64,000 nt of DNA, taken from the NCBI GenBank assembly GCA_005879315.1, contig VBLC01000039.1, positions 1-64,000 of the forward strand, read 5' to 3'. Of the stretch, positions 6,378 to 20,779 are shown in pieces. The position numbers and the translations under genes are program-made. Source of the stretch: Deltaproteobacteria bacterium (lineage in GTDB: Bacteria; Myxococcota; Myxococcia; Myxococcales; 40CM-4-68-19). Within the stretch, counting starts at the first letter, position 1, and each line of letters begins with the position of its first letter. The notes below the pieces were generated by a model that saw nothing but the letters and a program-made list of their open reading frames with translations, searched no databases and was not told the DNA's origin.

Positions 6378-7217
6378 TCAAAAGGCGCCGGCGAAGCCGA
6401 CCATCGGAGCGCTCGTTTGCGCGCTCACCGAGAGCGCATTGCCGCGCTTGTGCAAGAGCGGAATCACCACGCCGCAGGCCGCGCCGAGCGCCGCCCCGGT
6501 GGCCACATCGGTGAAGTAGTGCTTCTCCGCCATCATCCGCAGCGTGGCGGTGGTCACCGACATCGCCGCGGCCGCTCCCCACAGCCAGGGCGCGGCCGGC
6601 GACTCCTCCAGCGTGGCGGTCATCGCCACCGAGACCCCCAGCGAGGTGGCGAAGGAGGTGTGACCCGATGGATACCCGGCGTGGCTGTCTCGATCGTTCA
6701 CGTCGTAGGCGCCGCTCTCCTCGCCGTGGCCATAGCGCACGAACGGGCGCTTGCGGGCGGCAGCGAATTTCACCGCCTGCACCAAGACAGACGAGACCGC
6801 TGCCGACTCGGCGACGATGACGACGGCGCGCAATCCGGCGCCGTCGCTCGCGTGCGGGCCGGTGGCGGAGAGCGCGCCCGCGATCGCGCCGGCGGGCAAG
6901 AGCGCGAAAGCCCAGATGCTGCTCACCGTATCGGCCGTCTTGCGCGAGACGAGCCATCCGCTGAGCTGGTCATGGAAGAAGGCGTCCACGCCGTTCAAGG
7001 ACCCGGGCGATCCCGTGCCGGGCAGGCCGCTGTTGTCGTCCCCGTCGCAGAGGTTGCAGCGCGCGGGGGCGAAATGCTGCTTGAGCAATTCGGGCACCAC
7101 CCATCCGGCGATCCCGATTCCGACGATGGCCGCATCGGCGGCAGGCCGGAGAGCGACCTTGTCGTTCGGGCCGGCGTCGCTCCAGGAGGCAGCGGCCAGG
7201 ACGAACGCGACGATCAT
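6378..7217 (-). CDS. PAP2-family membrane phosphatase
   Basis: 279 residues with an N-terminal hydrophobic segment and several further membrane helices. The three PAP2 signature blocks are present: KFAAARKRPFVRYG, then YPSGHTSFATSLG, then KHYFTDVATGAALGA with the catalytic histidine. Members dephosphorylate phosphatidate or undecaprenyl pyrophosphate at the membrane; the substrate cannot be told here. The ATG overlaps the stop of the upstream kinase gene (ATGA), so the two are translationally coupled. Confidence 0.88.
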   Translation of the reverse strand: MIVAFVLAAASWSDAGPNDKVALRPAADAAIVGIGIAGWVVPELLKQHFAPARCNLCDGDDNSGLPGTGSPGSLNGVDAFFHDQLSGWLVSRKTADTVSSIWAFALLPAGAIAGALSATGPHASDGAGLRAVVIVAESAAVSSVLVQAVKFAAARKRPFVRYGHGEESGAYDVNDRDSHAGYPSGHTSFATSLGVSVAMTATLEESPAAPWLWGAAAAMSVTTATLRMMAEKHYFTDVATGAALGAACGVVIPLLHKRGNALSVSAQTSAPMVGFAGAF

Positions 7218-9166
7218 TTCGCCGCGTAGCGCGTGCGGACGGCGCTCAGCTCCGCGCCCAGCTCGCGGCAGCTCTGGTAACGGCGCGCCGGTTCCTTCTC
7301 CAGCAGCTTGAGGATGGCCGAGTCGAGCTCGGCCGGGAGCTGCGGATTGCGCTGCCGCGGCGGCTCGGGCGCGTCGTTGACGTGCATCATCAAGAGCGGC
7401 ACCAGCTCCTCGTGGTTGAAGGGCAAGGAGCCGGTGAACATCTCGTAGGCGCAGACGCCGAGGGCATAGAGATCGGTCAGATGCGACACGGTGCTGAAGT
7501 TGGAGATCTGCTCCGGCGACATGTAGAGCGGTGTACCGGCGATCGACCCTGCCACCGTCACTCCCGGCGCGGCGTACTGCTTGGCGATGCCGAAGTCCAT
7601 CACCTTGAGCACGCCGGAGTCGGCGATGAAGAAATTGTCCGGCTTGACGTCGCGATGCACGACGCCTGCGTCGTGCGCCGCCTGCAGCCCCAGGCAGGCC
7701 TGCATCAGGTAGTCGAGCGCGCTGTCGATGGTGAGCCGCTCCCGGAGGCGTTCCTTGAGGCTCGTGCCGACGAGCAGCTCCATGCTGATGTACCGGTGCC
7801 CCTGGTGCACGCCGATGTCGTAGAGCCGGATGATGTTGGGATGAACCAGCTGGCGCGAGAGCTTCAGCTCCTGCTTGAAGCGGGCGACGAGCACGTCCTT
7901 GCCCTTCTCCGCTCCGAAGACTTTCAGCGCGACGTGCTCTTCCAGCTCGAGATCGAAAGCCTTGAACACCGCCGCCATGCCGCCCTGACCGATCTGCTGC
8001 TCGATCCGGTAGCGGCCGGCGATGGTCGCGCCCGGCGCGAAGTCGGGCTCTGCCGCTTCCGCCTGCGGCGCAGTCGCCTTGCGCAAAAGGTTCGGATCGT
8101 GCCGCATCAGCGTTGCGTCCGGCTCGAGATCGGGCAGGTCGCCGAGGTCGAGCATCGTCTTCTTCTTGCGCAGCTCCGCGTCGCCGAGGAGGCTGCGCGC
8201 CACCGCCGCGGTCGGGCGCAACGCTTCGTCGACCTGCGCCAGCTTCTCGCGCGCGCCCGGGAACTGGGGATCCTTCTCCAGGATCTTCTCCAGCGCCTCC
8301 TTGGCGTTTCCGGGAAAGTCATGCGCGAGATAGAGCTGGGCGAGAAGATCGAAGACCGCCAACTCCTGCGCCTCGCGGGGGCCCGACTTGACGAAGGGCC
8401 CGAGGAAATGCTCGAAGCGAAAATCGAGCGCGCCGAGGTTGCTCGCCAGCCGCACCGCCATCACGGCGGCGGCGCGGTACCGCGGATCGTCGCGCTGTAC
8501 GCGCGCGAGATTCTCCAGCGCCTTGCCGGTGTCGCCCGCCGCGAGATACGCTTCGGCAGACTCATAAGGCATTCCTGCATCGGCGTAGAGCTGCGCCGCC
8601 TGCGCGCTCTGGCCGAGCTGCTGCGCCATGCGGCCCGCATCGCCGAAGCGCTTGAGCTGCAGGTAGGCCTCGAGCGCGAGCTGCAGCTTTCCCTGCTGCT
8701 CCAGCTTCTGCGCGGCGAGAAAGGAGATGGACTGCCCGCCCACGGCCTGGGGCTTGGCGATCATCGGCGCCGACTCGAACTGTCCCGGCTTCATCGACGA
8801 CAGCCGCGCCGCGCCCAGGTGATCTCCCGCGCGCTGCAGCAGCTCGACCGCGCGGGCCTGTTCGCCGAGCGCCATGAAGAGCTGCACGGCCAGATCGTTC
8901 TCGCCCGCCTTGCTGAAGAAGATGGCCGACATCAGCGCGCGCTTCTTGCCCGTGCTGTCGAGCTGCCCCACCTGCGCGGGCTGCACCCGCAGGCTCTCGA
9001 AGAGGAGCTGCCCGGCGTCGCGCGGCCGCTTCGATGCGCCGAGGAGCCGCGCCGCGTCCTCCAACGCGCCTGCTTCGCGAAAGGCCTTGATGGCCGCGTC
9101 GGCCTGGCCTGACTTCTCCAGAGAGCGGGCCCGTTCGAGAAGCTGCTTCTGGCCCTTGGCGTCCAT
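7214..9166 (-). CDS. Ser/Thr protein kinase with N-terminal TPR-like repeats
   Basis: 650 residues. Residues ~1-330 are alanine-rich helical repeats of TPR type (for example DLAVQLFMALGEQARAVELL). Residues ~385-645 are a complete Hanks-type kinase: glycine loop GQGGMAAVF, VALK lysine K415, HRDVKPDN (504-511), DFG (524-526) and GTPLYMSPEQ. No membrane segment is evident, so it is probably soluble. Most bacterial kinases of this type put the kinase first and repeats last; here the order is reversed. It begins in a TGATG overlap with the pilT stop and ends in an ATGA overlap with the PAP2 gene, implying co-translation with the pilus motor. Confidence 0.92.
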   Translation of the reverse strand: MDAKGQKQLLERARSLEKSGQADAAIKAFREAGALEDAARLLGASKRPRDAGQLLFESLRVQPAQVGQLDSTGKKRALMSAIFFSKAGENDLAVQLFMALGEQARAVELLQRAGDHLGAARLSSMKPGQFESAPMIAKPQAVGGQSISFLAAQKLEQQGKLQLALEAYLQLKRFGDAGRMAQQLGQSAQAAQLYADAGMPYESAEAYLAAGDTGKALENLARVQRDDPRYRAAAVMAVRLASNLGALDFRFEHFLGPFVKSGPREAQELAVFDLLAQLYLAHDFPGNAKEALEKILEKDPQFPGAREKLAQVDEALRPTAAVARSLLGDAELRKKKTMLDLGDLPDLEPDATLMRHDPNLLRKATAPQAEAAEPDFAPGATIAGRYRIEQQIGQGGMAAVFKAFDLELEEHVALKVFGAEKGKDVLVARFKQELKLSRQLVHPNIIRLYDIGVHQGHRYISMELLVGTSLKERLRERLTIDSALDYLMQACLGLQAAHDAGVVHRDVKPDNFFIADSGVLKVMDFGIAKQYAAPGVTVAGSIAGTPLYMSPEQISNFSTVSHLTDLYALGVCAYEMFTGSLPFNHEELVPLLMMHVNDAPEPPRQRNPQLPAELDSAILKLLEKEPARRYQSCRELGAELSAVRTRYAAK

Positions 9167-10248
9167 CAGGCGTCTTCGGCCAGCTCCGCGGCCAGCCGCT
9201 TGAGCGATTCGGGCTGGTTGGCGAACTTGAGCGCCTCTTCCAGCGTCACCGTGCCTTCCTTGACCAGGCGGAAGAGGCAGGCGTCGAGGCTCTGCATTCC
9301 CGAGCCATCGTACGAGGCGGTGTCGAGATAGCCGTCGATCTGGAAGACCTTGTTCTCGCGGATGAGGTTGGAGACGGCGTAGCTCTGCAAGAGCACCTCC
9401 ATCACCGCCACGCGCCCTTCGCCGCTGGCATGCTTGGCGAGGTGCTGCGAGAGCACGCCGCGGAGGAGCACGCTGAGGGTGCTGCGCACCTGGTCGCGCG
9501 TCTCCTCGGGGATGACGTCGATGATGCGGTCGATGGCTTTGCTCGCAGAGCTGGCATGGAGCGTTCCGATCACCAGCACGCCGGTCTCGGCGGCGGAGAC
9601 GGCGAGCATGATGGTCTCCAGGTCGCGCATCTCGCCGACCACCAGCACGTCCGGGCTCTCGCGCAAGGCCGAGCGCAACGCGCCCGCGAAGCTCTCGGCA
9701 TGCTTGCCCACCTGCCGCTGGGTGATGGCGCCCTGGATGGGCTGGTGCAAGTACTCGATGGGGTCCTCGATGCTGATCACGTGGCGCGCCGAGCTCTTGT
9801 TGATCTCGTGGACCATCGCCGCGAGCGAGGTCGTCTTGCCCGAGCCGGTCGGGCCGGTCACCAGGACGAGGCCGTTGGCCAGCTGCGTGAGGCGCTTCAC
9901 CGCGCCGGGCAGGTTCAGCTCCTCGATGGTGGGCACCTCGTTGCGGATGACGCGGAAGACCGCGCCGAAGCCATGCGTCTGCACGAAGACGTTGGCGCGG
10001 AAGCGGGCCGCGCCCTCGACCGCATAGACGAAATCGACCTCCTGCGTCTTCTCGAACTCGGCGCGCTGCTCCTCGGTCATGATCTCGAGGAGGAAGCGCG
10101 AGGTCTCCACCTCCGAGAGGATGCGGAAAGGCAGCGGCATCAGCTCGCCTTCGTGTCGGATGATGGGCACGTTGCCGGCGTGGAAATGCAGATCGCTTGC
10201 GCCTTGATCAGCCACCAGCCGCAAGAATGAATCGATGCGCGCCGCCAT
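9166..10248 (-). CDS. pilT: PilT/PilU-type pilus retraction ATPase
   Basis: 360 residues, full length. Motifs in order: N-terminal ASDLHFHAGNVP, Walker A GPTGSGKTT, Asp box SIEDPIEYLH, Walker B VLVVGEMRDLET, His box IGTLHASSASKAIDRIID. It is a hexameric cytoplasmic ATPase that depolymerises type IV pili. The QRQVGKH segment is also typical. The gene starts immediately after the stop of the HEAT-PilT fusion gene, so two different PilT-class motors are made from one transcript. PilT versus PilU cannot be decided from sequence alone. Confidence 0.93.
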   Translation of the reverse strand: MAARIDSFLRLVADQGASDLHFHAGNVPIIRHEGELMPLPFRILSEVETSRFLLEIMTEEQRAEFEKTQEVDFVYAVEGAARFRANVFVQTHGFGAVFRVIRNEVPTIEELNLPGAVKRLTQLANGLVLVTGPTGSGKTTSLAAMVHEINKSSARHVISIEDPIEYLHQPIQGAITQRQVGKHAESFAGALRSALRESPDVLVVGEMRDLETIMLAVSAAETGVLVIGTLHASSASKAIDRIIDVIPEETRDQVRSTLSVLLRGVLSQHLAKHASGEGRVAVMEVLLQSYAVSNLIRENKVFQIDGYLDTASYDGSGMQSLDACLFRLVKEGTVTLEEALKFANQPESLKRLAAELAEDA

Positions 10249-13143
10249 CTAGTTCTTCCTCGCGGGGGCGCCGTTGCCGCCCGCTGCAGGTGGCCGGCTG
10301 GCGGGCGCGGGCTTGGGCGGCGGCGTCTGCGCTGCCGGCGGCGCCTGCGTCTTGATCGGCACGCGCAGCGCCTTCTGCGCCTGCATCCGCTTCTCCTCTT
10401 CGTCGACGAACGGCTCGAACTCCTTCTTGCTCACCGCCTTCACGTAGGCGTCCTCGGCGGTGATCTTTCCCTCCTTGAGCAGCCGCATCAGGTCAATATC
10501 CATCAGCTGCATGCCCTGCTCACGCGAGGTGGAGATGACCGAGGGGAGCTGGAAGGCCTTGCCCTTGCGGATGAGGTTTCCGACGGCCTCGTTGTTGATG
10601 AGCAGCTCCACCGCCAGAACGCGGCCCGCGCCGCTCTTCTCGCGCAACAGATACTGGCAAACGACCGCGCGAAGGCTGTCGGCCAGGGTCGAGCGGACCT
10701 GCTGCTGCTGTCCGGGGGGAAAGGCGGCGACGATGCGGTCGACGGTGGTGGCCGCCGAGACCGTGTGCACCGTGCCGAAAACAAGATGTCCCGTCTCCGC
10801 CGCGACGACGGTGAACTCGATGGTGGGCAGGTCGCGCATCTCGCCGACGAGGATGACGTTGGGATCCTCGCGCAAGGTCGAGCGCAGCGCGGCGGCAAAG
10901 GAGCGGGTGTGCGTGCCCACCTCGCGCTGGTTGACCAGGCTCTCCTTGCGCCTGTGGATCACTTCGATCGGATCCTCGAGCGAGATGATGTGCCGCGAGG
11001 AAGTGCGGTTGATGTAATCGATCAGCGCCGCGAGAGTGGTCGATTTGCCCGACCCGGTCGGGCCGCCCACCAGCACCAGGCCATTCTTCAGATCGCCGAA
11101 CGTGCGCACCAGCGGCGGCAGACCGAGCTTCTCGAACTCGGGCAGCGTTCCGCGGATGCGGCGGAAGACACCCGAGAGCCCGCCCAGCTGCTGGAAGACG
11201 TTGGCGCGGAAGCGCAGCTCTTCGCTCTTCACTTCATGCGAGTAGTCGACGTCCTGCAGCGCCTGCAGCGCCATCACCTGTTCGTTGGTCAGGTGCGGCA
11301 GGAGCAGAGCCTTGACGGCTTCCTCGGAGAGCGGGCCGTCGGTGACGGGGCTGACCTGGCCGACCTTCTTCATGAACACGGGCTTGTTGGAGGCGACGAT
11401 CAGATCATCGCCCTCCTCGATCGCCAGCTTCACCAGCAGCCGATCGAGCAATGGCACCGGCACGGCTCCGCCCTGCGCGGTGATCCGCCAGCGCGCGCCC
11501 AGCTCTCGCGCGGCCGCGCGCACCTTGAGGTGCATGTCGTCGTGCAGCTTGGCGATGGTGGTGGCGTGCTCGCGGCAGTCGAACTTCTCGAGGAACTTGA
11601 TCGCCAGGTAGCGGACATCGGCGTTTTCCGAGCTGCACAGCTGCGCCACCTGCGGGGAGGCGCCCTTGGCGCTCATGTCGATGAGCGCCGGCAAGCAGAT
11701 GGGCTGGAGGTCTGGTTCGGCGGTCATGATGTGCACGATGTACGGCACGGCGCGCGCGTCGTTGATCATCGCCACCGCTTCGATGGCGGTTTCCTTCACC
11801 CACCAGTCGGAATCCTGCGAGGCGGTCTGCACCAGCGAGCGCAGCGCCTTGGGGTCCTTGAGCCGGCCGAGCACGCCGACGGCGAAGCGGCGGATCACGT
11901 CCGACTTGTCGGTGAGCAGCGGGACGATGTGCGGGGTCAGCCGCAGCCCGCCCAGCTCGACCAGCGCATCCATCACCCGCTCGCGCACCCACCAGTCTTC
12001 GTCGCGGAGCATGGCCATCAGCTTGGGCCAGAGCGACGCATCCGGATCGGGCACCCCGCGGATGACTTCGGTGGCCATGCGCCGCACGTTCACGTCGCGG
12101 CTGCGCAAGAGCCAGATGACCGTGCGGGAGATGTCGAGCTTGCCCTCCATCGAGAGCTGCTTGAGCACCTCGGCGGCGCGGTTGCGCACCGGGACCTGCT
12201 TGTGGGCCAGCGCATCGACCAGGGGAGGCAGCACCGCATCGGAGCCGATGGCCTCCAGCGCGTTGAGCACCGCCAGGCGAATGGCGCGAGGTCCCGCGCG
12301 CATCTTGCGCTCGAGCGCGGCGATCACCCGCGCCGAGGAGAAGCGGCGGAGGCCGTCGACTGCGGCTTTGACGAATCCGACCGCGTCGGAGTCGAGGAAA
12401 GGTCCGACGAATTCGAAGTAATCCTCCTCGGCGCAGAGCGCAGAGAAGGAAGTGATCGCCTGCATCGCGATCGTTTCCGGCAGCGATCCGTCGAGGAACG
12501 GCGCGATCACCTTGAGCGCCGAGGCGGGGTCCTTTCCCATCGCCTTGGCGTCGCCCAGGTGCTTCAGTGCGTGGACCTTCTCCGCGGTCGTGCCCACCGC
12601 CAGCGCCGCATGCAGCGCCGGAACCGCCTGGTTCTTGGCGAAGCTGACCAGCACGTCGAGCGCCTCGACGCGGCCGGCGAATCCGCTCTCCCCCGCCGCC
12701 TTGCTGAGCATCTCGAAGACGGTCTTGCCGCCGCCGATCTGCATCAGCGCGCGCGCCACGGTGGCGCGCAGGCCCTGATCGCTCGAACGCAACAGCTCCA
12801 CCAGCGCGGCGTGCTCGGTGGCGCTGTTCACCTTGGGGAGCAGCGAGGCCAGCGTCGTGCGCAGGCTTGCATCGGCCGACTTGAGCGCTTTGACGAACGG
12901 AACGAAGAGCGCCTTGTCGGGATTCTTGTCGATCAGCCGCGCGAAGACGGTCAGCCGCGAGCGATGCACGGCCGCGTCGGAGGTCTTGCCGGTGACCACC
13001 TCCAGGAGCTTGAGCAGGTCGGGTGTCTGCGGCGCCTCGACGGCGACGACGAAGGACTCCACTTCCTCGGGCGCTTTCCATGCGGCCGACTTGAATTGAG
13101 CGAGGAGGTCCTTCCCGGAGAGCATCCGGTTCCAGCTTAGCAT
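10249..13143 (-). CDS. HEAT-repeat domain fused to PilT-class ATPase
   Basis: 964 residues. Residues ~80-555 are a long series of HEAT-like repeats (for example AVLNALEAIGSDAVLPPLVDAL and VRRMATEVIRGV). Residues ~565-915 are a complete PilT/PilU ATPase: Walker A GGPTGSGKST with K700, Asp box SLEDPIEVIH, Walker B ILVGEMRDL and His box FGTVHTVSAA, so it should be catalytically active. A Pro/Ala-rich tail (~930-964) ends the protein. The HEAT solenoid may bind a partner at the pilus base; that is inference. The start could also be the Met six codons further in (13125). It is the first gene of the minus-strand run, and there are only 73 bp to the divergent SGNH gene. Confidence 0.9.
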   Translation of the reverse strand: MLSWNRMLSGKDLLAQFKSAAWKAPEEVESFVVAVEAPQTPDLLKLLEVVTGKTSDAAVHRSRLTVFARLIDKNPDKALFVPFVKALKSADASLRTTLASLLPKVNSATEHAALVELLRSSDQGLRATVARALMQIGGGKTVFEMLSKAAGESGFAGRVEALDVLVSFAKNQAVPALHAALAVGTTAEKVHALKHLGDAKAMGKDPASALKVIAPFLDGSLPETIAMQAITSFSALCAEEDYFEFVGPFLDSDAVGFVKAAVDGLRRFSSARVIAALERKMRAGPRAIRLAVLNALEAIGSDAVLPPLVDALAHKQVPVRNRAAEVLKQLSMEGKLDISRTVIWLLRSRDVNVRRMATEVIRGVPDPDASLWPKLMAMLRDEDWWVRERVMDALVELGGLRLTPHIVPLLTDKSDVIRRFAVGVLGRLKDPKALRSLVQTASQDSDWWVKETAIEAVAMINDARAVPYIVHIMTAEPDLQPICLPALIDMSAKGASPQVAQLCSSENADVRYLAIKFLEKFDCREHATTIAKLHDDMHLKVRAAARELGARWRITAQGGAVPVPLLDRLLVKLAIEEGDDLIVASNKPVFMKKVGQVSPVTDGPLSEEAVKALLLPHLTNEQVMALQALQDVDYSHEVKSEELRFRANVFQQLGGLSGVFRRIRGTLPEFEKLGLPPLVRTFGDLKNGLVLVGGPTGSGKSTTLAALIDYINRTSSRHIISLEDPIEVIHRRKESLVNQREVGTHTRSFAAALRSTLREDPNVILVGEMRDLPTIEFTVVAAETGHLVFGTVHTVSAATTVDRIVAAFPPGQQQQVRSTLADSLRAVVCQYLLREKSGAGRVLAVELLINNEAVGNLIRKGKAFQLPSVISTSREQGMQLMDIDLMRLLKEGKITAEDAYVKAVSKKEFEPFVDEEEKRMQAQKALRVPIKTQAPPAAQTPPPKPAPASRPPAAGGNGAPARKN

Positions 13144-14116: not shown

Positions 14117-15157
14117 TCACTCGAGCGAGGGAATGCGCACCAGCGCCGCGTTCTCCTCGACGTGGGCGGGCGTCTTCATTCCCACCAGCGCGCACGTCAC
14201 CGCCGATCGGGCGAACTGCAACGCGCGCTGCGCATCGGTCTGGAGCGCGCCGGGCTGATCGCGCATCTGCCGCAGCAGCTTCTGCGCCAGCCGTCCTTGC
14301 AGCAGGCTCGCCGAAGCAAACACGGCGACGCCGTTGTCGTGCGCCGCCTCGAGCAACGACCTGCCACCCTGGTTGCGGAAGACTCGCGCCTCGTTCATCT
14401 CGACGTTGAAGGGCAACTGCACGGCGCGGAAATGGTGCGAGGCGCCGCCGGCCTCGCGCGCCGCGGCGAGCATTTCGTCGAGCGAGAGGTACTCTTCCTC
14501 GCCGGCGGCGAGACGAAAACCGCCCCAGGTGGCGACCCCGTAAGCGGCGATGCGCCCCTCCGCGCAAGCGCGCTCGAGCGCCGCGAAGGCCGCGCGCAAG
14601 CGCCGGAGAAACTCGGCCCGCGTCACTTCGCCGAGTTGCGTCTCGGGATTGTGGAGGTAGTAGAGATCGATGCACGCCACGCCGAGGTTGCGCCGGCTGC
14701 GATCGATCTGGTCCTCGAGATAGCGCGGCGCCAGCGAATGGCAGCCCGCGACGATCTCCTCCGGCTCGAGCAAGCCGGGCTTGATGAAGGTCTCCTCGAA
14801 GTAGGCGCGCACGTCGCGCGGGCGCGCGCCGTCGAAAGGCAGGTAGCCGCCCTTGGTGCAGAGCACGAACTGCTCGCGGGGCAGGCCGCTCTCGCGCACC
14901 GCCGCGCCCACGGCGCGCTCGCTGCGCTGGTTGCGATAATTGATCGCGCTGTCGACGACGTTGATGCCCAGCTGCAGCGCGCGCCGCACCGACCGGGCGT
15001 AGAGCGCGTCGGTGGCGTCGTCGTCGCGGTCGAGATACGTGCCGATGCCGAGCGAGGAGAGCCAGAGGCCTGAACCTTCGCGGAAGTGGCCGGGCGCGCC
15101 GCCGCTCGCGTCGCGAAAACGCGCAGTGCCTTCGAGAGTGGCGAGGCCGGGAAGCAT
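14117..15157 (-). CDS. Aldo/keto reductase
   Basis: 346 residues. The AKR barrel is recognisable: SLGIGTYLD at strand 1, a catalytic tyrosine region NVVDSAINYRNQRSE, lysine in FVLCTKGGYLP, histidine in LYYLHNPET, and a C-terminal ALVGMKTPAHVEEN cofactor segment. It probably reduces carbonyls with NADPH in the cytosol; the substrate is unknown. It diverges from the respiratory operon, leaving a 147 bp intergenic region. Confidence 0.88.
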   Translation of the reverse strand: MLPGLATLEGTARFRDASGGAPGHFREGSGLWLSSLGIGTYLDRDDDATDALYARSVRRALQLGINVVDSAINYRNQRSERAVGAAVRESGLPREQFVLCTKGGYLPFDGARPRDVRAYFEETFIKPGLLEPEEIVAGCHSLAPRYLEDQIDRSRRNLGVACIDLYYLHNPETQLGEVTRAEFLRRLRAAFAALERACAEGRIAAYGVATWGGFRLAAGEEEYLSLDEMLAAAREAGGASHHFRAVQLPFNVEMNEARVFRNQGGRSLLEAAHDNGVAVFASASLLQGRLAQKLLRQMRDQPGALQTDAQRALQFARSAVTCALVGMKTPAHVEENAALVRIPSLE

Positions 15158-15304
15158 GGGCGCATCCTAGGCTCGCGCGCGGACCAGCGCGAACGCGAGC
15201 GAGGGTTACGCACCTGCGCGCGAGCCGACACCGACCGGAAGGGCGCTTGCCAAGTCGCCCGATCTTTGCTCTGCATCGCCCCGTCCCGAGAGATCGGAAA
15301 TGGA

Positions 15305-15955
15305 ATGAGCGCACTCTTCAAGCCGGGCGCCAACACTTCATTTCGCGTCACGCTCGTAGTGCTCGCCTTGCTGCTCGGTGGGGGGTTGGTCGCCGGCCCG
15401 ATGATCTACGTGCGCTCGCCGTACTTCACGCAGCAGCAGGATCCGGTCGATCAGCCAGTGCAGTTCGATCACCGTCATCACGTCGGCGACGAAGGGATCG
15501 ACTGTCGCTATTGCCATTCGCTGGTGGAGAAAGCGCCCAATGCCGGAGTACCTCCAACCAGCGTCTGCCTCAATTGCCACGAGCAGATCTGGAACAAGAG
15601 CCCCAAGCTCGCGCCGGTGCGGGAGAGCTATTTCGCCGACCGGCCCATCGTTTGGAACAAGGTCAACAAGCTGCCCCACTTCGTCTACTTCAACCATTCC
15701 ATCCACCTGAAGCAGGGTGTCGGCTGCGTCACCTGCCACGGGCGCATCGACGAGATGGCGTTGGTGGAGAAAGCGCAGCCCCTGACCATGGGCTGGTGCC
15801 TCGAGTGCCATCGCAATCCGGAGCGCTTTCTCCGCCCGCGCGAGGAAATCACCAGCATGACGTTCCGGCCGCGCGATCAGCTCGCGCTCGGCCGCGCGCT
15901 GAAGGACCAGTACCACGTCCACACTCGCGTCTCCTGCACGACCTGCCACCGATGA
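15305..15955 (+). CDS. actA: Alternative complex III subunit A, pentaheme cytochrome c
   Basis: 216 residues from the ATG at 15305; the longer in-frame extension has no coding character. One N-terminal membrane anchor (VTLVVLALLLGGGLVAG) is followed by a periplasmic domain with five CxxCH heme sites: CRYCH, CLNCH, CVTCH, CLECH and CTTCH. This matches ActA, the pentaheme subunit of the quinol:electron acceptor oxidoreductase that replaces the bc1 complex. Its stop overlaps the actB start. Confidence 0.95.
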   Translation: MSALFKPGANTSFRVTLVVLALLLGGGLVAGPMIYVRSPYFTQQQDPVDQPVQFDHRHHVGDEGIDCRYCHSLVEKAPNAGVPPTSVCLNCHEQIWNKSPKLAPVRESYFADRPIVWNKVNKLPHFVYFNHSIHLKQGVGCVTCHGRIDEMALVEKAQPLTMGWCLECHRNPERFLRPREEITSMTFRPRDQLALGRALKDQYHVHTRVSCTTCHR

Positions 15956-18857
15956 AGCTTCCTCTCGCCGGACAGAGCAGGCCCTGGCGCAGCGTGGAGG
16001 AGCTGCAATCTCCGCCGGCGCCGTCGCGCGAGCTGGGGCCTGCGGAGCCTCCCTCGCGGCGCGAAGTGCTGCAGCTCCTCGGCGCGAGCGCGGCGCTGGC
16101 GACGATGGGCGGCTGCCTCAAGCCGCCCGACGAGAAGATTCTTCCCTATACGAAGCAGCCGCCGGAGGTGACGCCGGGCAACCCGCTGCATTACGCGACC
16201 TGCTCGACGCTCGACGGCCGCGCCACGGGTCTGCTCGTCACCGCCAGCGAGGGCCGTCCGACAAAAGTGGAGGGCAGTCCCGAACATCCTTCGAGCAAGG
16301 GCGGGATCGGCGTGCTCGAGCAGGCGCAGCTGCTCAGCCTCTACGATCCGCAGCGCCTCAAGGTCGTGCAGTACAAGAGCGAGCTCCGCTCGTGGCGCGA
16401 TTTTCTCGCCACCATGATCGCCAAGAGCCGCGTGCTCCGTGACCGGCGCGGCGAAGGCTTGCGCTTCCTCATGGAGCCGAGCTCGTCGCCCCTGATCGCG
16501 CATCTGCGGCAGCGATTGCTCGAGGTCTATCCGCGCGCGCGTTTTTCCTCGTGGAGCGCGATTCCGCTGCAGCAGATCCACGACGGCGCGCAGCTCGCTT
16601 TCGGATCCGCCTACGAGACGCGGATCGATCTGTCTCGAGCGCAGGCCGTGGCGTCGCTGGATGCGGATTTCCTTTCCGCGATGCCGGGCAATGCGCGCCC
16701 GATGAAAGACTGGGCAGCGCGCCGCGTGCCGCCGAACATGGCCCGGCTCTATGCGGTCGAGGCGCACCTCTCGGTCACCGGCATGAATGCCGACCATCGG
16801 CTGCGGTTGAAGCCGAGCCAGGTGCATCGCTTCGGGCTGGCTCTGCTGGGGCGGCTCGTCCCCCGCCATGCCGCGCTCGCCAAGCGCTTTTCATTCTCGG
16901 CGGAAGAGCTGCGCTTCGCCGACGTCCTGGCGAGAGATCTGCAGCGCGCCGGCGCGGGCGCTGCAGTGCTGGTCGGCGCCCGGCAACCGCCGGTCTTGCA
17001 CGCGGCAATGCACGCCATCAATGCCGCGTTGGGCAGCAGCGTCGTCTCGCAAGCGAAGCCGGTGCTCCACGAGATGGACGCGGGCCCTCGAGCGCTGCGG
17101 GTGCTCGCCGAGGAGATGCGCCGCGGAGCCGTCGATACCTTGATCATGACCGCTTACAACCCAGTCTATGGCGCGACCTCGGACATCAATTTCGCCATGG
17201 CATTGTCGCAGGTCAATACTTCGGTCTATCGGACGCTCTATGCCGACGAGACCGCGGAGCGCGCCGGCTGGGTCCTTCCCGCCGCGCACCCCTTGGAGAG
17301 CTGGGGCGACGCGCGGGCGCACGACGGGACCATCAGCTTCCAGCAACCGCTCATCGCTCCACTCTATGCGGGCGTGAGCGAGGCGGAAATGCTGGCCGCC
17401 TTGTTCGGGGAAGGCGACCGGACCGCATACACGCAGCTGCGCGAATTCTGGCAAGCGCGAGTGCCCGAGCTGGGGCGCTTCGACCTGACCTGGGAGAAAT
17501 GGATCGCGGACGGCTTCATTCCGGGAACCGCGGTCAAGGCCGAATCGCCCGCGGTCAATCATGACGCCGTTCTTGCCGAGGCGATGAAAGTCCCGCCCGC
17601 GGAAAAGCCCGGCCTGGAGATCAATGTCGTTGCCGATACCAAGGTCCTCGACGGGCGTTTCGGAAACAACGGCTGGCTGCAGGAGCTGCCCGATCCCGTC
17701 ACCAAGCTGACCTGGGAGAACGCCGCGCTGCTGAGCCCGGCGACTGCGGCGGAACTCGGCGTCGAGCAGGGCGACCTGGTCGACCTCACGCTGCGCGGCC
17801 CGCCTGCGCGCGCCCCGGTCGTGATCGCTCCGGGTCACGCAGACGGCGCGGTGACGGTCGCCATCGGCTACGGCCGGCGCAGCGACGCCGAGACGCTCTG
17901 CAAAGGAATTGGCTTCGACACCAGCACGCTGCGCCACAGCGACCTTCCCTGGTTCGCGCCCGGCTTGGCCCTGGTTGCGACCGGCCGCAAGGCGCGGCTG
18001 GCGCAGACGCAACAACATCACTCGATGGAAGGGCGGATCATCGCCGTTTCCGCTGCGCTCCCGAAGCTGCGCGAGACCGAGGAGATGCTCGAGGAGCAGC
18101 GCGGCGCGCCTCTCTCCTTCCACCGTCCCTGGGATTACTCCAAGGGATACCGTTGGGGAATGGCCATCGATCTCTCCCGCTGCACCGGCTGCAGCTCCTG
18201 CGTCGTTGCCTGCCAGGCGGAGAACAATGTCCCCGTGGTCGGGAAGGATCGGGTCTGGCGCAGCAGGGAAATGCACTGGCTGCGGGTCGATCGGTATTTT
18301 CTCGGCGAGGACGCGGCGAACCCGGGAGTGGTCTTCCAGCCGCTCATGTGCGTGCATTGCGAGAGCGCGCCCTGCGAATACGTCTGCCCGGTCAATGCCA
18401 CCGTCCACAGCGACGAGGGGCTCAACGAGATGGTCTACAACCGCTGTGTCGGGACACGATATTGCTCGAACAATTGCCCCTATAAAGTGCGGCGATTCAA
18501 TTTCTTCTCCTATACCTCGGAGTACAGCGACCAGGAGAAGATGGCCTTCAATCCCGACGTGACCGTCCGCTCGCGCGGCGTCATGGAGAAATGCACGTAT
18601 TGCGTCCAGCGCATCGAGCGGGCCCGAATCCATTCGCGGGTCGAGGGACGCGAGATCCGGGACGGCGAGATCCAGACCGCCTGCCAGCAGGCCTGTCCCG
18701 CCGACGCCATCGTCTTCGGCGATCTCAACGATTCCGGCTCGCGCGTCAGCCGGCTGCTCTCCAGCGAGCGCCGCTACGATCTCCTCCACGAGCTGGGCAC
18801 GCGCCCGCGCACCGGATATCTGGCCCGCGTCATGAATCCAAACCCGGAGCTCGCCTG

Positions 18858-18858
<1 letters not shown>
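15952..18858 (+). CDS. actB: Alternative complex III subunit B, molybdopterin-like/iron-sulfur protein
   Basis: 968 residues from the ATG overlapping the actA stop. A twin-arginine-like signal ([20 protein letters not shown]) leads into a molybdopterin-oxidoreductase-like domain (~60-640). The C-terminal part (~690-960) carries ferredoxin-type cysteine clusters: [35 protein letters not shown] and a CTYC...CQQAC set. In characterised ActB the molybdopterin domain has lost its cofactor and the clusters conduct electrons to the heme subunits. Both halves are fused, as usual. Confidence 0.95.
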
Positions 18859-20248
<1,390 letters not shown>

Positions 20249-20252
<4 letters not shown>

Positions 20253-20779
20253 AGCGCTACGTCCTCGGCGAATTCGGCGAGCCGGAGGATTGCGTGGAGG
20301 CATTGCGCAAGCTGCACGAGGCCGGAGTGCAAGGTCTGGATGCCTATTCACCCTATCCATTGCACGGCAGCGACGAGGCGCTGGAATTGCCGCGCAGCAA
20401 GGTTCCGCTCGTGGCGCTGACGGGCGGCGTCTTCGGAGCGCTGGGCGGCTACGTCATGCAAGCGTGGATGAACGGCGTCGATTTCGCGATCAATGTCGGC
20501 AACCGCCCGCCGCACGGATTCTGGACCAACATTCCCATCACCTTTGAATCGGGGGTGCTCCTCTCGGTCTTGAGCATCTTCTTCAGCGCCATCTTCTACT
20601 TCTTCGCCTTGCCGCGCCCCTATCATCCGGTCTTCGAGTCGGAGCAATTCCGCACCGCCTCTCTCGACGCATTCTGGGTGAGCATCGAGACCGAGGAGGA
20701 AGAGCCGGTCGCCGATCTGGAAGAGAAGCTGCGATCGACCGGCGCGCGCCGTGTCCACACGGTGGTGGAGAGCGCATGA
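20249..20779 (+). CDS. actD: Alternative complex III subunit D (DUF3341)
   Basis: 176 residues. A soluble N-terminal domain ([20 protein letters not shown]) is followed by two membrane helices ([19 protein letters not shown] and a second near 95-120) and a soluble C-terminus. This is the pattern of DUF3341/ActD, a structural subunit beside ActC. It overlaps actC and actE by four bases each. Confidence 0.92.

Follow-up and report, generated by a model that had tools for sequence, protein, structure and literature searches.

A HEAT-repeat PilT-family motor encoded with a second PilT and a Ser/Thr kinase: a candidate kinase-linked retraction module

The closest described systems are the retraction ATPase PilT and its partner PilU. 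In Vibrio cholerae the two are reported to form separate homohexamers in mutual contact (PMC6821130, available part). Within PilT, H229 is described in the accessible text of PMC6858323 as a phosphate-coordinating residue, and the AIRNLIRE motif is predicted to contact the platform protein PilC (PMC12019362, available part). The accessible text of PMC6762196 has the motif pointing to the cytoplasm, notes its absence from PilU and considers a position of PilU below PilT. Since these last two sources, in the portions available, disagree on which way AIRNLIRE faces, either ring may be the one that touches PilC.

In the window, by which we mean the whole 64,000-nucleotide stretch of DNA analysed, an open reading frame of 964 aa without internal stop lies on the minus strand at 10249..13143 (all features of the locus given below are on this strand). 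We refer to its product as HEAT-PilT or PilT-A; its true start may be 13125, as homologues begin at the equivalent of Met7. The first-pass annotation had described about 475 residues of HEAT-like repeats on a complete PilT-class ATPase. The full motor stands, while the solenoid is longer than that, spanning residues 10-556 (11476..13116; Pfam HEAT_2, E = 1.8e-39) and consisting of tandem helical hairpins, the hallmark of a HEAT repeat protein, with 34 helices predicted by AlphaFold2. It includes an arginine- and tryptophan-pair pattern that we term RR-WW-RR-WW (R354R355, W384W385, R418R419 and W447W448; residues 354-448, 11800..12084). The ATPase domain (residues 566-908, 10420..11448) scores 402.9 bits with the PilT/PilU family model TIGR01420 (cut-off 319.1), and its catalytic motifs are complete: Walker A (GGPTGSGKST, residues 693-702, 11038..11067), Asp box, Walker B and a His box with both histidines, H786 and H793 (residues 783-795, 10759..10797). 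At the AIRNLIRE equivalent, EAVGNLIRKGKA (residues 852-863, 10555..10590), K860 takes the place of the acid. The AlphaFold2 model, built with 19 homologues, runs from HEAT helices through the PilT domain to a Pro/Ala-rich tail (residues 927-964, 10252..10365) that is predicted to be disordered (pLDDT <50). Most 10-residue blocks of the HEAT part have a pLDDT of 80-95, so that the earlier concern that this region might fold poorly is allayed by prediction; the pTM is 0.45, and the orientation of arm versus motor is not fixed by the model. When the model was compared with known structures by VIA-align, the motor superposed on PilT4 (6ojx_A) with Z 31.0 and rmsd 4.0 over 331 residues, and HEAT residues ~337-558 matched alphaRep and designed repeat chains with Z 17-20.

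PilT-B (360 aa, 9166..10248; TIGR01420, 418.3 bits) begins at the base directly after the HEAT-PilT stop codon. It has valine in place of the first His-box histidine and retains the AIRNLIRE acid. The next gene, overlapping PilT-B by 1 nt, encodes a TPR-Ser/Thr kinase of 650 aa (7214..9166; Pkinase 8.7e-49, TPR_14 3.6e-9) in which the glycine loop, HRDxKPxN (HRDVKPDN), DFG and an APE-like motif (GTPLYMSPE) are all present. The three genes thus form a single tightly packed unit, an apparent operon. This agrees with the earlier proposal of co-transcription with a normal-length PilT; that proposal named the PilT partner only and overlooked the co-encoded kinase. HEAT-PilT and PilT-B lie together on a single stretch in 24 pairs, of which 23 show a kinase gene next (partial in L008, L016 and L143, where the stretch ends); the lone pair without one, L015, has just 108 bp of downstream sequence. 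The kinase is also found in a locus with a frameshifted fusion (L018) and in the window locus itself, and HRD and DFG motifs occur in all 22 HEAT-PilT-locus kinases checked. At L137 the order is changed, PilT-B and the kinase being encoded upstream of the fusion; one genome, G183, carries two complete modules (L139 and L140); and at L013:9782-10866 PilT-B is split into two overlapping ORFs by a frameshift or sequencing error. A PAP2-family gene (6378..7217; PF01569, 2.7e-16) overlaps the kinase gene by 4 nt and was considered as a further part of the module, but by tblastn it is present in just 3 of 24 fusion loci (L001-L003) and is therefore non-core. Elsewhere in the window, positions 15086-20779 hold what looks by eye like an alternative complex III-like cluster (a CxxCH haem-binding protein, an Fe-S protein, a membrane subunit and a small membrane protein).

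To describe the distribution of the fusion we used a scan of named genomes, which gave 80 loci. The fusion was found in L001-L017, L019, L029 and L055, some of them truncated at a contig end, with L018 being the frameshifted case. The record titles are those of Deltaproteobacteria, Myxococcales, Acidobacteria, Vicinamibacteria, one Phycisphaeraceae (L015) and unplaced Proteobacteria, bearing in mind that names of metagenome-assembled genomes (MAGs) can err. Full-length HEAT-PilT, taken as a match running from model position 99 or lower to 881 or higher, is present in 17 of 195 Myxococcota genomes, confined to families f1, f4, f6, f24 and f25. Within f6 only G109 and G152 carry it, and the two large-genome loci examined there (L133 and L134) encode a tandem pair without HEAT. 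The domain order that the first-pass annotation proposed to look for in myxobacteria is therefore found, yet patchily. In a plasmid search, no place among the best 5000 records covers 80% of the HEAT-PilT query. Could the fusion be an assembly or annotation artefact? The window genome is in 125 contigs and its relatives are mostly MAGs, but the same fusion and gene order recur in many separate assemblies: all seven genomes of the window's genus carry it, as do independently assembled MAGs. The conserved fusion refutes an artefact, whose probability we regard as practically negligible, and confirms that HEAT-PilT is real and not an assembly error.

To compare the two motors residue by residue we took 25 HEAT-PilT pairs and 15 gammaproteobacterial-type pairs, 80 proteins in all, omitting L013 (frameshifted PilT-B) and L018 (frameshifted fusion). 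None of them has lost the Walker A lysine, the Asp-box glutamate or the Walker B glutamate (80/80, including 25/25 HEAT-PilT A and 25/25 B proteins). The first His-box histidine, H786, which aligns with PilT H222, is present in 40/40 A and 0/40 B proteins, and the second (H793, equivalent to PilT H229) in 39/40 A and 40/40 B. The acid at position 860 shows the reverse pattern, 0/40 in A and 40/40 in B; the window protein reads NLIRKGK here, and the acid is missing from all 25 HEAT-PilT A proteins. It is kept in the A motors of a second HEAT-PilT type described below, HP2 (5/5), and of other tandem pairs (19/19, one of the two L049 pairs being omitted from a set of 20 that includes Aeromonas PilT/PilU), so that its loss from A goes with the HEAT/kinase systems. 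With B having lost the first His-box histidine and A the AIRNLIRE acid, the division of labour suggested in the first-pass annotation gains support, and the reciprocal loss provides a natural experiment for studying how the two members of a retraction ATPase pair divide their work. The mixed complex suggested alongside it does not fare as well: the nearest studied pair, PilT and PilU, is described as separate interacting homohexamers (PMC6821130, available part), and two stacked homohexamers of A and B appear more likely than a mixed ring.

For phylogenetic analysis, PilT rows were thinned to 100, or 88 motors were picked by hand for a more careful tree. In the 88-motor tree the tandem-pair motors form a single clade (100/96) that leaves out Aeromonas PilT, Aeromonas PilU and a separate PilT of the window genome that adjoins a PilB-like gene; the clade contains one extra single-copy motor type. 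HEAT-PilT A and HEAT-PilT B each form one clade (100/100). Support for a grouping of all B proteins is moderate (85/90); for the A proteins the tree resolves no such grouping, and it speaks neither for nor against a common origin of all A subunits. A PilT-family ORF with an extra PilT-like N-domain, found singly in the window genome (L093:8671-10674, contig C58), lies inside the tandem-pair clade. One of the records met, L127 (NZ_AP026896.1), is described as a 4.94 Mb plasmid of Aeromonas caviae and carries pilT with an adjacent second pilT-family gene; it is probably a mislabelled chromosome.

These data bear on the alternative that HEAT-PilT is no more than a PilU-like accessory motor of the main type IVa pilus, with an arm that merely stabilises the ring stack and regulates nothing. 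A lacks the AIRNLIRE acid, as does Aeromonas PilU, and PilU works through PilT in the portions of the literature available. However, A precedes B in gene order, the tree does not join A with Aeromonas PilU (represented by a single row on a very long branch of 2.06), the gammaproteobacterial-type genomes hold further adjacent PilT-family pairs (for example at G196:C144), and a constant kinase is left unexplained. We consider this explanation quite improbable. In the reading that we prefer, PilT-B, retaining AIRNLIRE, would most likely engage PilC, while HEAT-PilT would serve as an ATPase-competent, PilU-like second ring that assists it; a stacked ring pair is the simplest arrangement.

What the HEAT arm might do is suggested by a related HEAT block found elsewhere. 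In 15/15 gammaproteobacterial-type loci, two PilT genes come immediately after a gene for a HEAT-kinase fusion (784-861 aa). Fourteen of the records bear the name Gammaproteobacteria, Chromatiales or Ectothiorhodospiraceae in their titles, and L052 is titled uncultured bacterium; the called ORFs of L052 overlap, probably through start choice. Whole-protein HEAT scores of these kinases (157-177 bits; L052, 84) exceed those of HEAT proteins from the same genomes (26-62), but unrelated long HEAT proteins reach 156 bits, and we therefore rejected such scores as a test of kinship, replacing them with a domain model made from PilT fusions only and with the RR-WW-RR-WW pattern. The PilT-fusion-only model scores 97-108 bits on 14 of the 15 HEAT-kinases and 59 on L052. 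The controls stay lower: none of the eight top non-PilT HEAT matches of the phylum search exceeds 55, and HEAT proteins of the kinases' own genomes reach 21 at most. RR-WW-RR-WW occurs in 33 PilT ORFs (some of which may duplicate one gene with different ends), in 14 kinase ORFs and in the frameshifted L018 fusion, with the WW pairs spaced 63 residues apart in the PilT fusions versus 62 in the HEAT-kinases; it was found in 0/12 other HEAT ORFs and 0/4792 further ORFs, nor was it found in nine HEAT-scoring PilT ORFs (HP2, cut pieces and L140) or in kinase L052, the one partial case among the 15. Across 193 Myxococcota genomes, all 24 HEAT-block matches above 150 bits (22 loci of the phylum set and two more) are fused to PilT, and the next match scores 92 bits. 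Since the A2 model contains kinases, high kinase scores are built into it and only this Myxococcota gap was counted as evidence.

Among the 11 gammaproteobacterial-type loci that were clustered, a DUF6812-like gene precedes the HEAT-kinase (the L052 copy lies downstream), and an FHA-domain gene follows PilT-B in 9/11 (Pfam was run on the L020 copy). FHA domains bind phosphothreonine, and an FHA gene next to PilT-B thus fits phospho-signalling. Furthermore, a HEAT block that sits on either the motor or the kinase plausibly links the two. We tentatively propose a mobile HEAT block, fused to the motor in Myxococcota and in Acidobacteria-labelled MAGs and to the kinase in Gammaproteobacteria, as one part of a joint reading to which we return below and which we hold to be possible though somewhat short of probable. 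Because HEAT repeats bind many partners, the shared fusion partners may instead reflect a common ligand, not contact between kinase and motor.

Not every HEAT-bearing motor pair follows this plan. HP2 (L128-L132) also has a HEAT arm on PilT-A with PilT-B adjacent, but its arm carries a single DWW and no RR-WW-RR-WW tetrad, and its score on the PilT-fusion HEAT model (39-61 bits, versus controls of at most 55) does not tie it to the tetrad family. In addition to the retained AIRNLIRE acid, the Walker B glutamate of HP2 A is aspartate in 4/5. Kinase genes were seen near 0/5 HP2 pairs and near 2/20 other tandem pairs (L144 and L145, which are without the RR-WW-RR-WW HEAT block), both counts being lower bounds since flank lengths vary. 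N-terminal extensions vary among the other tandem pairs: the one-DWW HEAT arm of HP2, short regions with no assignment, or an additional PilT-like N-domain. The long A motors at L133:6206-8122 and L134:7848-9854 consist of a PilT-like N-domain, a long Ala/Pro linker and then the motor, in which asparagine replaces the second His-box histidine. PilT-A of L044, L045, L047, L050 and L053 shares a conserved ~60-residue N-terminal domain that, by eye, we take to resemble MshEN/GspE-N; the L044 domain gave no Pfam match.

An alternative is that the HEAT arm serves as a scaffold for localisation or assembly, binding a structural protein and so bringing both motors to the pole or to the base of the pilus, while the co-transcribed kinase acts elsewhere. 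HEAT solenoids are generic binding scaffolds, consistent with the fold matches to repeat chains, and 5/5 HP2 fusions are without a nearby kinase. Against this, a kinase adjoins the motor pair in 38/38 HEAT-linked pairs with enough sequence to show it (23 HEAT-PilT and 15 gammaproteobacterial-type), and in the gammaproteobacterial-type loci the kinase and the related HEAT block are parts of one polypeptide. We rate a pure scaffold as unlikely, if the most serious of the competing explanations, and favour an arm that takes part in signalling: the HEAT solenoid of A could dock either the co-encoded kinase or a target that this kinase has phosphorylated, and retraction would in this way be gated or tuned by phosphorylation, with the kinase signal reaching the motor via the HEAT arms of A.

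As to the machine that is driven, the clustered loci show no recurrent pilin or platform gene next to the module. This, together with PilM scores below cut-off in 4/32 module-bearing genomes, would suit a pair that drives, in place of twitching pili, another type IV filament-like machine (for secretion, DNA uptake or gliding). Yet the motors lie well above the type IVa PilT/PilU cut-off and PilM is above its cut-off in 28/32 of these genomes, which fits type IVa pilus use and makes a different filament machine very unlikely in our estimate. The module is probably dispensable for basic retraction, given the separate PilB-adjacent PilT of the window genome.

Altogether, we judge it marginally more likely than not that HEAT-PilT belongs, as subunit A, to a two-motor module for pilus retraction that is linked to a kinase, with A and B stacked, the HEAT arm in contact with the kinase or its target, phosphorylation controlling retraction, and the type IVa pilus as the place of use. 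The fusion and its conservation, the three-gene unit, the related HEAT block on motor or kinase, the reciprocal motif loss and the intact catalytic residues are direct observations; from them we infer the stacking, the HEAT-kinase contact, the phospho-control and the pilus type. The joint reading mentioned above goes further and is more tentative: a class of phosphorylation-gated motors in which two specialised PilT rings would be coupled to a kinase via one mobile HEAT block. With a kinase that accompanies the motor pair and is elsewhere fused to a relative of the putative docking block, the module suggests a direct, testable link between phosphorylation and pilus mechanics, which bears on how bacteria time pilus retraction. 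An open-access literature search (titles and the starts of abstracts) turned up neither a HEAT-PilT fusion nor a PilT pair with a kinase linked to it, and Myxococcus locus names gave no match; as the search was restricted to open-access PMC, this is weak evidence for novelty. In the available part of a report on Geobacter PilT paralogues (PMC5065972), HEAT gave one irrelevant match and kinase none.

Compared with the known systems, HEAT-PilT shares with PilT (6ojx, 3jvv and 2gsz) the fold, ~40-45% identity in Foldseek rows, and Walker A, Asp box, Walker B and both His-box histidines. It differs in adding a HEAT arm of ~547 residues and a kinase-linked tandem partner, and it is not a PilT in the strict sense: the AIRNLIRE acid is absent, and its clade is separate from Aeromonas PilT and from the PilB-adjacent PilT of the window genome. 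It resembles PilU (9n32) as the second ATPase of a pair, without the AIRNLIRE acid and with the first His-box histidine retained, but it is encoded upstream of its partner, whereas PilU lies directly downstream of pilT, and it comes with a HEAT arm and a kinase. Finally, the gammaproteobacterial clusters of HEAT-kinase and two PilT genes (L020-L042) are alike in having a related RR-WW-RR-WW HEAT block, the kinase and the reciprocal motif loss of PilT-A and PilT-B, and differ in carrying HEAT on the kinase instead of the motor and in the FHA gene that follows.
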